Below, in pieces: positions 18,347-21,901 of a DNA stretch of 34,782 bases. This stretch comes from Luteimonas salinisoli (GTDB lineage Bacteria > Pseudomonadota > Gammaproteobacteria > Xanthomonadales > Xanthomonadaceae). The translations under genes were made by a program, and so were the position numbers. The DNA lies in the NCBI RefSeq assembly GCF_013425525.1, contig NZ_JACCKA010000041.1:1-34782 (forward strand). Reading direction: 5' to 3'. Within the stretch, counting starts at the first letter, position 1, and each line of letters begins with the position of its first letter. The notes under the pieces are model-generated. The model ran no database searches, had not been told where the DNA came from, and saw only the letters and a program-made list of their open reading frames with translations.

Positions 18347-18465
18347 GCCGTGATTGGTCATGGGGGATTCGCACGATTCTGCTGCGAACCTGAACGGGAA
18401 ATCGGACGCGGGCGCCAGCCCGCCGCCTCGCTGCCGATCACGAACGACCAATCACGAATCACGGC
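18347..18465. repeat. Inverted GTGATT-type repeat after tamB
   Basis: GCCGTGATTGGTC (18347-18359) is mirrored by GACCAATCACGAATCACGGC (18446-18465). The right arm equals the left arm plus one extra 7-base AATCACG unit. The arms start 3 bases after the tamB stop and enclose about 86 bases. It may form a long stem that ends tamB transcription, or it may be a short mobile repeat; there is no T-tract. Confidence 0.55.
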
Positions 18466-18477
18466 TCTTCGGCCAAT

Positions 18478-18512
18478 AAAAAGCCCCGCAGGCAGGGGGG
18501 GCCGGCGGGGCT
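18478..18512 (-). terminator. Intrinsic terminator of the polA-downstream sRNA
   Basis: On the minus strand an 8-bp stem AGCCCCGC/GCGGGGCT (18505-18512 with 18482-18489), extended inside by GGC/GCC, is followed directly by TTTTT (18478-18482). It is the clearest factor-independent terminator in the window and sets the 3' end of the candidate sRNA. Confidence 0.8.
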
Positions 18513-18598
18513 CGGTGGAACGGGGCTCGGGGAGAAGCCTTACGTTCCGGGATCACTCCAGGGGAAGGGAGAGATCAGCGACAGACGTTGCATCTGTC
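18478..18598 (-). ncRNA. Candidate sX13-like small RNA downstream of polA
   Basis: Reading leftward, four hairpins follow one another. A perfect 8-bp stem GCGACAGA/TCTGTCGC occupies 18578-18600. Next is a GATC-T-CTC/GAG-T-GATC stem (18551-18576) with loop CCTTCCCCTG. Then comes a GGAACG/CGTTCC plus GGCT/AGCC stem (18517-18548) with loop TCTCCCCG. Last is a terminator stem with a CCCCCCT loop and a U-run. A possible -10 box (CATATA, 18605-18610) fits a start near 18598, but the 5' end could be further upstream. No ORF fits. Position after polA is shared with E. coli Spot 42 and Pseudomonas ErsA. C-rich loops are the recalled feature of Xanthomonas sX13, which targets G-rich ribosome-binding sites. 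Identity is inferred, not searched. Confidence 0.7.
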
Positions 18599-18739
18599 GC
18601 GAGCTATATGACCATTCCCCACATGGATGGTTCGTGAAGATTCCGGTTATTTTTCGGCGAAGTTCAGCATCCATTTACCCAGCGGAGATCTGCACCGCCC
18701 CGCCCATCGCCCCGACGGATCCCGCGCATGGGACGGCCG

Positions 18740-19056
18740 CCGGGCTCCTGCGCGGGAGCGGCCTTGGCGGAGCGATCGCGGGCCGCCTTAAAGCGCACCG
18801 ACGGACCGGCGCACTCCTGCCGGATCGCGCCATGCGCGCGAAGGCCGGCGCGCCCGGCAACCCCGGCGATCGCCGCCCACCGCAACGAAGCCTCGCGCGG
18901 TCTTCGCCGCCATGGGCCGCTCCTACAAAACCGCCGCTCGCCGCTCCCCTTGTAGGAGCGTGCCATGCACGCGAAGGCCGGCGCGGTGACCAACGCCCGG
19001 AGTCACCGCCAACCCCATCGGAAGCCCCCCGCGGCCTTCGCCATGGGCCGCTTTAC
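18740..19056. repeat. Paired SMAG/REP-like repeats (sRNA-polA gap)
   Basis: This is the main content of the 786-base gap between tamB and polA beyond the sRNA. One unit, with a decayed head, ends in CGCTCCTAC at 18918-18926. The next runs from GTAGGAGCG (18952) to GCTTTAC (19056), about 105 bases. Each begins with a GCGTGC-CAT-GCACGC-type stem followed by GAAGGCC and ends with an inverted GGCC...CATGGGCCGC segment, so each unit is a back-to-back palindrome pair. No gene is seen here. Confidence 0.7.
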
Positions 19057-19129
19057 GAAAACAGGCGTACCGCAGACGTCCAGAACGACGCGCTCGCGGC
19101 AGATGCGCGCGCTGCGCGCTGGCCGGCGT

Positions 19130-21901
19130 TCAATGCGCCTCGTCCCAGTTCTCGCCGGTGCCGCAGTCCACCACCAGCGGCGCGCGCAACTCGGCGGCGC
19201 CGGTCATCCGCGGCACCACCTCCGCCAGCAGGGTGTCGACGAAGTCCGCCTGTACCTCGAACACCAGTTCGTCGTGCACCTGCAGGATCATCCGCGCCGC
19301 GCCGGGCGGCTGGGTGGCCAGCCAGGCGTCGATGGCGATCATCGCGCGCTTGATGATGTCGGCAGCGGTGCCCTGCATCGGCGCGTTGATCGCCGCGCGC
19401 TCGGCGCCGGCGCGCAGGCCCTGGTTGCGGGCGGCGATGTTCTCCAGGTACAGCCGCCGGCCGAAAACGGTCTCCACGTAGCCCTGGTCGCGCGCCTGCT
19501 GCCGGGTCCGCTCCATGAAGTCGCGCACCCCCGGATAGCGCGAGAAATACAGCGCGATGTAGTCCTGCGCCTCGCCGCGGCCGATACCGAGATTGCGCGC
19601 CAGCCCGAACGCGCTCATCCCGTACATCAACCCGAAGTTGATCGCCTTGGCGGCGCGGCGCTCGTTCGGCGTGACCTCCTCCACGGCGCGCCCGAACACC
19701 TCGGCCGCGGTGGCGCGGTGGATGTCGGCGCCGGAGGCGAAGGCCTTCAGCAGGCCCTCGTCCTCCGACAGATGCGCCATGATCCGCAACTCGATCTGCG
19801 AATAGTCGCAGGCGACGATGCGGTTGCCGGGATCGGCGACGAAGGCGCGGCGGATGCGGCGGCCGTCCTCGGTGCGGATCGGGATGTTCTGCAGGTTGGG
19901 ATCGCTCGAGGCCAGGCGGCCGGTGGCGGCGCCGGCCTGGTGGTAGCTGGTGTGCACCCGGCCGGTGTCCGGGTTGACGATCTCGGCCAGCTTCTCGGTG
20001 TAGGTGCTGCGCAGCTTGGCCAGCGCGCGGTATTCCAGGATCACCCGCGGCAGCTCGTGCTGGTCGGCGATCGCCTCCAGCGCCTCCTCGTTGACGGACG
20101 GCTGTCCCTTCGGGGTCTTCACCAGCGCCGGCAGCTTCAGCTCCTCGAACAGCAGCGCACAGACCTGCTTCGGCGAGTCGAGGTTGAAAGCGCGCCCGGC
20201 CAGCGTGGTGGCCTGCTGCTGGAGGGCGAGCATGCGCCGCGACAGGTCGGCGGTCTGCCGGCGCAGCTCGTCGGCGTCGATGCGCACGCCGTTGGCCTCG
20301 ATCCGCGCGAGCACCGGCACCAGCGGGATCTCGATCTCGCGATAGACCCGCTCCAGCGCCGGCACCGCGGCCAGCTTCGGCGCCAGCAGCCGGTGCAGGC
20401 GCAGGGTGACGTCGGCGTCCTCGGCGGCGTAGCGGGTGGCGTCGTCGAGCGCGACCTGCGAGAACGCGATCGCCTTGGCGCCCTTGCCGGCGACGTCGGC
20501 GTACTTGACCGTGGTATAGCCGAGGTAGCGCAGCGCCAGCGAGTCCATGTCGTGGCGGCTGGCGGTGGCGTTGTAGATGAAGCTCTCGAGCATGCTGTCG
20601 TCGGCATACCCGCGCAGCTCGACGCCGTGGCGACGCAGCACGTGCAGGTCGTACTTGCCGTGGTGGCCGACTTTCCTCTTCGCCGGGTCCTCGAACAGCG
20701 GCCGCAGCGCCGCCAGCGCCTCGTCGCGGTCGAGCTGCGCCGGCGCGCCGCCGTAGTCGTGCGCCAGCGGCAGGTAGGCGGCGCTGCCCGGCTCGACGCT
20801 GAAACTGACCCCGACCAGGCTGGCGCGCATCGGGTCGAGCGAATCGGTCTCGGTGTCGAAGGCGAATTCCGGCGCGGCGCGCATGCGCTCGATCCAGGCC
20901 TCGAGCCGGGCCTGGTCGAGCACGGTTTCGTATTCGCCGGGCGCGGCCAGGGCCGGGTCGATGCCCTCGGCGGCCACCGCCGCGGGGCGCGCGTAGCCGG
21001 CCTCGGTGCCGCGCACGCTGACCCGGTCGCCGGCGGCGTCGGCCGGCACCGCGCCGGCGCCCTCCAGGTCGCGCAGCGCCTGGGTGAAACCGTAGCGGGC
21101 GTACAGCGTGCGCAGCGCCTCGACGTCGCGCGGGCGCAACTCGAGCTGGCGCGGACCGCGCGCCAGCGGCACGTCGGTGCGGATCGTCACCAGTTCGCGG
21201 TTGAGCGGCAGCCGCTCCAGCACCGCGCGCAGATTGTCACCGATCTTGCCCTTGATGTTCCCCGCGTTGGCGATCACCCCGTCCAGCGACTCGTACTCGC
21301 CCAGCCATTTGGCGGCGGTCTTGGGCCCGCACTTGTCGACGCCACGGACGTTGTCGACGGTGTCGCCCATCAGCGCCAGCAGGTCGACGATCTGGGACGG
21401 GCGCACGCCGAACTTGTCGACCACCGCCACCTCGCTGTCCAGGCGGCTGCCGCTCATGGTGTTGACCAGGGCGATGCCGGGCTGCACCAGCTGGGCGAAA
21501 TCCTTGTCGCTGGTGGAGACGGTGACGTCGATGCCGTCGGCCGCCGCCGCCAGCGCCAGGGTCCCGATCACGTCGTCGGCCTCCACCCCGTCCTCGCGCA
21601 GGATGCTGATGCCCAGCGCCTCGACGATGTCGCACATCGGCTGCAGCTGCGCGCGCAGCTCGTCCGGCATCGGCGGCCGGTTGGCCTTGTACTCCGGGTA
21701 CAGGTCGTCGCGGAAGGTCTTGCCCGGCGCATCGACCACGAAGGCCACGAATTCCGGCCGTTCCTTGAGCGTGGCGCGCAGCATGTTGACCACGCCGAAC
21801 AGCGCGCCGGTGGGCTCGCCCTGGGCGTTGGCCAGCGGCGGCAGCGCGTGGAACGCGCGGTACAGGTACGAAGACCCGTCGATCAGGACTAGGCGTGGCA
21901 T
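19130..21901 (-). CDS. polA: DNA polymerase I
   Basis: A 923-residue protein with all three activities. Residues 1-290 are the 5'-3' exonuclease/flap domain (LVLIDGSSYLYRAFHA, DDVIGTLA, STSDKDFAQLV, GDTVDNVRGVDKCGPKTA). The middle is an intact 3'-5' proofreading domain (FDTETDS, YAAEDADVT). The polymerase domain has motif A CDYSQIELRIMAHLS, motif B RRAAKAINFGLMYGMS and motif C QVHDELVFEV. It fills gaps in repair and removes Okazaki RNA primers. ATG at 21899-21901; transcribed divergently from the DUF2782 lipoprotein gene. Confidence 0.98.
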   Translation of the reverse strand: MPRLVLIDGSSYLYRAFHALPPLANAQGEPTGALFGVVNMLRATLKERPEFVAFVVDAPGKTFRDDLYPEYKANRPPMPDELRAQLQPMCDIVEALGISILREDGVEADDVIGTLALAAAADGIDVTVSTSDKDFAQLVQPGIALVNTMSGSRLDSEVAVVDKFGVRPSQIVDLLALMGDTVDNVRGVDKCGPKTAAKWLGEYESLDGVIANAGNIKGKIGDNLRAVLERLPLNRELVTIRTDVPLARGPRQLELRPRDVEALRTLYARYGFTQALRDLEGAGAVPADAAGDRVSVRGTEAGYARPAAVAAEGIDPALAAPGEYETVLDQARLEAWIERMRAAPEFAFDTETDSLDPMRASLVGVSFSVEPGSAAYLPLAHDYGGAPAQLDRDEALAALRPLFEDPAKRKVGHHGKYDLHVLRRHGVELRGYADDSMLESFIYNATASRHDMDSLALRYLGYTTVKYADVAGKGAKAIAFSQVALDDATRYAAEDADVTLRLHRLLAPKLAAVPALERVYREIEIPLVPVLARIEANGVRIDADELRRQTADLSRRMLALQQQATTLAGRAFNLDSPKQVCALLFEELKLPALVKTPKGQPSVNEEALEAIADQHELPRVILEYRALAKLRSTYTEKLAEIVNPDTGRVHTSYHQAGAATGRLASSDPNLQNIPIRTEDGRRIRRAFVADPGNRIVACDYSQIELRIMAHLSEDEGLLKAFASGADIHRATAAEVFGRAVEEVTPNERRAAKAINFGLMYGMSAFGLARNLGIGRGEAQDYIALYFSRYPGVRDFMERTRQQARDQGYVETVFGRRLYLENIAARNQGLRAGAERAAINAPMQGTAADIIKRAMIAIDAWLATQPPGAARMILQVHDELVFEVQADFVDTLLAEVVPRMTGAAELRAPLVVDCGTGENWDEAH

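Follow-up and report, generated by a model that had tools for sequence, protein, structure and literature searches.

sX13 is a small RNA described from Xanthomonas as a virulence regulator of a crop pathogen (PMC3771888). Its length is given there as 115 nt, citing earlier dRNA-seq work, its 5' region is called unstructured, and a requirement for the C-rich loop and for a 4G motif has been shown experimentally. The RNA is said to be exclusive to Xanthomonadaceae, its level goes up in minimal medium, at 37 degrees and under salt, and its control is given as independent of HrpG and HrpX (PMC3771888). According to the same source, Spot 42 of E. coli, an Hfq-dependent RNA of carbon metabolism, also follows polA, and alpha-r7 of Alphaproteobacteria has three stem-loops with C-rich motifs at a polA locus; whether the polA locus elsewhere also encodes small RNAs is a question that the paper itself asks. 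ErsA of Pseudomonas (RF01719, Pseudomon-1 in Rfam) occupies the polA-engB position (PMC8575079). Among the papers listed by our literature search, none treats sX13 together with ErsA.

The window analysed here, a stretch of 34,782 nt (34.8 kb) from Luteimonas salinisoli of the Xanthomonadaceae, carries a match over cut-off to one Rfam family alone, sX13. Model RF02232 aligns at 18477-18589 on the minus strand over its full length (model positions 1-115) with 71.2 bits against a cut-off of 50, and this is the single RF02232 match in the genome at E <= 0.001. The upstream neighbour on the same strand is polA (DNA polymerase I, 19130-21901, Pfam DNA_pol_A), the nearest polA among the matches listed being that of Luteimonas endophytica (94% amino-acid identity). 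The polA stop lies 529 nt before the 5' hairpin discussed below, and the downstream gene, tamB, is convergent. A preliminary description, made from the letters of the sequence, had proposed sX13 and named a search with the Rfam models as the check; the search found sX13 over cut-off at the locus and bears the identity out. Its placing of the locus near Luteimonas and Lysobacter is likewise supported, by the polA of L. endophytica. The comparison with Spot 42 made in the same description finds no support, and this identity is rejected, since the Spot 42 model has no match in 18440-18660 at E <= 1. The locus is an ordinary member of the known sX13 family, and the RNA itself is not new. What goes beyond anything we found in print is a 5' hairpin, a sigma-E-type promoter motif and a wide range of relatives. 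The gap between polA and the RNA (18822-19067 of the window) holds diverged repeats of 66 nt and 29 nt, with inverted copies nearby.

Folding of 18476-18640 (minus strand) with RNAfold returns all four hairpins that had been proposed on the polA strand (z = -5.9, with 0 of 200 shuffles folding as well), and 18476-18589 alone gives the three with C-rich loops (z = -5.4). The four hairpins are contained in 18600-18476 of the minus strand, with spacers of 1-3 nt between consecutive ones. The 5' hairpin (18578-18600) has arms GCGACAGATG (18600-18591) and CGTCTGTCGC (18587-18578) around a loop CAA (18590-18588) that lies within a conserved GCAA. It is followed by stem-loop 1 (18551-18576, equivalent to sX13 stem 1), with the loop CUUCCCCU, to which the U-U mismatch noticed beforehand can be assigned (GAUC-U-CUCC / GGAG-U-GAUC), and by stem-loop 2 (18517-18548, sX13 stem 2), with the loop CUCCCC. 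Stem-loop 3 (18481-18513, loop CCCCCCU) is an intrinsic terminator with a U-run at 18478-18482, which places the predicted 3' end of the RNA at about 18478-18476; a mechanical terminator scan also reports it, where 0.6 such sites would be expected by chance. The three stems with apical CCCC or CCCCC loops that define sX13 are all present. The preliminary description was right about the C-rich loops and the terminator, and also about the existence of a 5' hairpin, but not about its form: in place of a perfect 8-bp stem, the fold gives 10 bp and a CAA loop. Over the full four-hairpin structure, 37 pairs are 93.0% paired, and both-side changes are found in 32 of them.

The 5' hairpin is conserved throughout the family. 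We oriented and read 106 Xanthomonadaceae loci, leaving out 22 mostly near-identical ones together with L058 and L101, and a GCAA loop stands at the place of the 5' hairpin in 104 of them. The other two, which are not part of the hairpin counts, are an incomplete match with a GCAA hairpin visible just upstream (L086) and a second copy with TTCAA (L093). Removal of near-identical rows from the 104 loci left the 84-row alignment A1, in which the hairpin is predicted unasked by RNAalifold. Its eight pairs in A1 are 97.2% paired (23-40% in slid controls), seven of them are changed on both sides, and the cells with both-side changes number 75 versus 21.3 in shuffles, with 0 of 500 shuffles reaching 75. 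When changes were mapped by parsimony onto a polA tree of 99 loci, 41 double changes over nine pairs preserved pairing (38 of them in pairs 1-8) and 31 changes broke a pair, 19 of these in the outermost pair 9. On the same tree, changes from Watson-Crick to G-U number 18 versus 7 to A-C, a modest asymmetry, and pairs 2-9 of 67 unique hairpins hold 32 G-U versus 7 A-C; pair 1 is U-G in 50 of these 67, and a U-G pair is kept in the stem in 65 of the 84 rows of A1. The excess of G-U over A-C in the sense strand points to an RNA rather than to a DNA palindrome.

Named polA loci give the same picture: the hairpin is present in all of the best 80 of 588, species of Xanthomonas and Stenotrophomonas among them (8/8 pairs in 72, 7/8 in eight), and all 80 match the covariance model R1 described below, one of them clipped by a contig end. 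The suggestion that the 5' hairpin may be lineage-specific is ruled out by these 80 stems and by the 104 GCAA loops, the hairpin being family-wide instead, and the proposed check for covariation in polA-downstream relatives came out strongly positive. A family-wide 5' hairpin also makes a transcript of about 125 nt, starting near 18600, likely, rather than the 120 nt or so that had been expected. Position 1 of the Rfam model corresponds to 18589, so that the model start (AACGCC in Xanthomonas, AACGTC here) is inside the loop of the inverted repeat GCGACAGATG-CAA-CGTCTGTCGC. The 5' hairpin suggests that both the Rfam model and the published constructs start midway through a conserved element. 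The 3-bp mini-hairpin at the 5' end of the Rfam model was considered as the cause of the conserved first nucleotides and rejected, with 39.7% of cells paired and covariation absent under our own column mapping.

RF02232 matches 284 of 297 family genomes at E <= 0.001, 239 of them over cut-off; within the genus, 50 of 52 genomes match. When 34 genomes with weak or missed matches were searched again with laxer filters, 31 matched; these 34 include seven of the 13 initial misses, four of which now match. In 100 of the 106 family loci polA lies upstream in the same orientation, at a distance of 93 to 817 nt. Some family genomes carry more than one such RNA. One has two tandem sX13-like copies, each with its own 5' hairpin (L380, G022 C2:887650-888350), and another has two copies on different contigs (L379 on C15 and L092 on C14 of G002), of which the C15 copy has the loop TTCAA and not GCAA, and polA is absent from the 5.4-kb stretch fetched around either. 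A likely paralogue is present in four genomes of family f12 (L372, L375, L378 and L381): this second RNA, distinct from the first, has C-rich loops and a hairpin near TATCGCCGTGA..GGCGA, and its motif reads TTGAACT/TTGAACC..CACTAA.

Beyond the family, we searched with models that include the 5' hairpin. R1, built from A1, matches 189 of 299 order genomes at E <= 0.01, 79 of them belonging to the family by our count; nine other families have E below 1e-4, and two more are reached with weaker values. R2, built from 20 family and 27 order loci, matches 73 of 274 class genomes at E <= 0.01, three of them of the family. Pair counts from A2, an alignment fitted to R1, are biased towards structure. 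The 30 order loci and 27 class loci considered from here on are those returned outside the family by the R1 and R2 searches, all of the class loci with E below 1e-5; two order loci with neither the promoter motif nor a same-strand upstream polA (L178 and L179) are probably false and are kept in all counts. polA is upstream on the same strand in 17 of the 30 order loci and in 16 of the 27 class loci, at 700-1320 nt in three of these 16, and it is inverted in two more class loci. GCAA occurs within the first 32 nt of 19 order loci (2.8 expected) and 13 class loci (1.8 expected), in a few cases outside the loop, and in 17 of 30 and 18 of 27 loci, respectively, the fold of these 32 nt is better than that of 95% of shuffles. 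Hairpin-inclusive models find relatives order-wide and, in the class, in a scatter of families, with polA frequently next to them; these loci bear, at the sequence level, on the question of whether the polA locus of other bacteria encodes small RNAs. In one locus of family f3 (L176) the 5' hairpin, too, carries a C-rich loop (ACCCCCAA), which looks as though it had turned into a further targeting loop.

The sigma-E consensus of Xanthomonas is GGAACT-N15-17-GTCNNA. Upstream of the 5' hairpin the minus strand of the window reads CGAACC-N16-GTCATA, a predicted promoter with a sigma-E-type -35-like element CGAACC (18629-18634; consensus GGAACT) and a -10-like element GTCATA (18607-18612). The same genome encodes RpoE (345.6 bits, cut-off 236.15), and its rpoE gene is preceded by GGAACTT-N15-GTCACA, with the same spacing as the sX13 motif if counted from GGAACT; GGAACTT is also the -35 element of E. 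coli RpoE (PMC8103513). The strict form (N)GAAC-N16-GTC at the fixed place is found in 30 of 60 non-redundant family loci. A motif score of at least 9 of 11 is reached in 33 of 87 non-redundant family loci (1.3 expected), some family loci having their top-scoring place at a chance offset, in 24 of the 30 order loci (0.26 expected) and in 24 of the 27 class loci (0.28 expected), the expectations coming from shuffles that kept dinucleotides in one run and single letters in the other. To judge by this motif, the RNA is likely tied to envelope stress, as is ErsA.

Our reading, to which we give a probability of about 0.72, is that this is an sX13-family locus with a likely four-hairpin RNA of about 125 nt, whose predicted driver is sigma-E and whose predicted role is the repression of mRNAs that have G-rich ribosome sites. 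The motif suggests that sigma-E (RpoE) would drive the RNA, and transcription would start at the foot of the 5' hairpin, near 18600 (predicted start region 18597-18600, minus strand, 7-10 nt past the -10-like element). On the evidence of sequence comparison, the 5' hairpin is likely the true start of the RNA, lacking in the published model; since the published start falls in its loop, the 115-nt RNA may be a processed form or have a mis-mapped end. The CCCC loops would bind GGGG located at a target's start codon or close to it and block translation without Hfq, by the mode described for Xanthomonas (PMC3771888). Because the GCAA loop is kept while the letters of the stem change, the 5' hairpin may shield the 5' end or serve as a docking site for a protein or another RNA. 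Evidence on targets is weak. In this genome the start codon of hfq is preceded by GGGG, and GGGG stands before hfq in 13 of the 32 order genomes examined (32 hfq genes, this one included, out of 121 genomes searched); the duplex of sX13 with hfq in this genome is no better than those of shuffles (90 of 300 as good), and hfq as a conserved, duplex-supported target is unsupported.

Several other explanations must be weighed against this reading. The promoter could be of the usual sigma-70 type, with TATA at 18608-18605. Conservation of these letters across the family is fairly good and extends to Xanthomonas, which has a poor sigma-E motif (GATCCA..GTGTTA). We regard this as improbable, as a -35 match is absent, a mechanical scan for sigma-70 promoters returned 0 sites in 18350-19130, the GAAC..GTC elements have the spacing of the genome's own rpoE motif, and most order and class relatives examined have textbook sigma-E motifs. 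The inverted repeat could also be a DNA operator of a dimeric regulator, its arms covarying as a palindromic site, with transcription starting in its centre at 18589. The 5' end as published (read off the Rfam model) does lie mid-repeat, and conserved blocks extend further upstream. This is a very improbable account given the sense-strand ratios of G-U to A-C (32 to 7 over unique hairpins, 18 to 7 over tree events) and the U-G stem pair retained in most rows of A1; moreover, order and class loci replace the stem letters wholesale and mostly remain hairpins, and TATA and GTCATA end 14-18 nt before 18589, probably too far for a start there. Less easily set aside, though still unlikely in our view, is that the primary start is near 18600 and an RNase cuts within the GCAA loop, the working RNA being of 113-115 nt and the hairpin a processing signal. 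Such a cut would account for both the published 115-nt RNA (PMC3771888) and the GCAA kept in 104 of 106 family loci, but GCAA is missing from the first 32 nt in 11 of the 30 order loci and 14 of the 27 class loci.

A published experiment counts against the reading of the 5' hairpin as the start of the RNA: plasmid-borne sX13 without its first 14 nt complements like the full copy in plants (PMC3771888), so that these nucleotides are dispensable there. If the published 115 nt are the 115 positions of the Rfam model, the first 14 nt consist of the 3' arm together with two bases of the loop and a few of the linker; the upstream arm would then be outside the published RNA, and the experiment would show half of the hairpin, not the whole, to be dispensable.

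A sigma-E promoter would make sX13 part of the envelope-stress response and might account for its higher level under salt, in minimal medium and at 37 degrees. In X. campestris, loss of RpoE1, the candidate sigma-E counterpart, lowers hrpX and not hrpG and delays the response of pepper, and rpoE1 is itself up in minimal medium; the authors' explanation is that RpoE1 binds the hrpX promoter directly (PMC6085468). The reported effects of sX13 loss (PMC3771888) resemble this signature, delayed response included.

At E <= 0.01 the Rfam ErsA model finds matches in 22 of the 274 class genomes, a single one of them over cut-off (L299, 121.3 bits, with polA 104 nt before the match), and in eight genomes (G572, G606, G675, G678, G707, G721, G796 and G817) R2 and the ErsA model match the same place, below the ErsA cut-off. 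Convergence, with C-rich loops and a GC-rich terminator satisfying such models anywhere, would explain both the order and class matches and the ErsA link. In its favour, these eight places are all below cut-off, RF01719 has no match in 18440-18660 of the window at E <= 1, and with filters off R2 scores L299 at just 31.8 bits (E 6e-5 in 67 kb), a value close to what whole-genome scans return as noise; the genome scans with R2 missed this locus. Outside the class, the matches at E <= 0.01 are all of 29-34 bits and are not taken as real, which means that class matches of that size are not safe. Against it, a control search of 125 kb around hfq and sigma-factor genes gave 0 matches at E <= 10, and the class loci have features outside the model, namely polA upstream on the same strand (16 of 27) and the promoter motif (24 of 27). 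Convergence appears rather doubtful to us. Two class loci match several families. G721 (L197, C33:13149-13905) has four tandem copies of a C-rich RNA after polA, with GGAAC..GTCTGA before each, that match the sX13, anti-hemB, ar14 and ErsA models, all below cut-off, and L208 (G707 C11) matches R2, ErsA (30.3 bits, below cut-off) and anti-hemB (51.7 bits, over cut-off).

Compared with the described systems, the window shares with sX13 (RF02232) the three hairpins with C-rich loops, the terminator and the position after polA. It differs from sX13 as published in its 5' end, which PMC3771888 draws as unstructured and for which Rfam has a start within the loop of the hairpin, and a 3-bp mini-hairpin in place of the longer one; as to promoter class, the available text of PMC3771888 gives none. 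ar14 of Alphaproteobacteria reaches 22.0 bits here, far below its cut-off of 58.8, and anti-hemB of Burkholderia (RF02837, a model of 81 positions) has no match in 18440-18660 at E <= 1, although it matches some of the order and class loci found by R1 or R2, one of them over cut-off. ErsA is similar in position and in type of promoter, the locus L299 having TGAACTT-N16-GTCATA and a C-rich terminator loop like the window. It is described as dependent on sigma-22/AlgU (PMC7565897), where the window shares the sigma-E-type motif only, as having a U-rich unstructured middle domain, where the window has hairpins 1-3 nt apart and no such domain, and as Hfq-dependent, in contrast to the Hfq-independent sX13 of Xanthomonas (PMC3771888). 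The comparison with ErsA made in the preliminary description gains some independent support from promoter type, position and the loci that both models match below the ErsA cut-off, and none from RF01719 in the window. We see an even chance that sX13, ErsA and perhaps anti-hemB are one gammaproteobacterial family of sigma-E-driven envelope-stress RNAs beside polA, tandem in some lineages, in which the opening stem would drift, the GCAA loop would tend to stay, and the C-rich loops that follow would mask ribosome sites.
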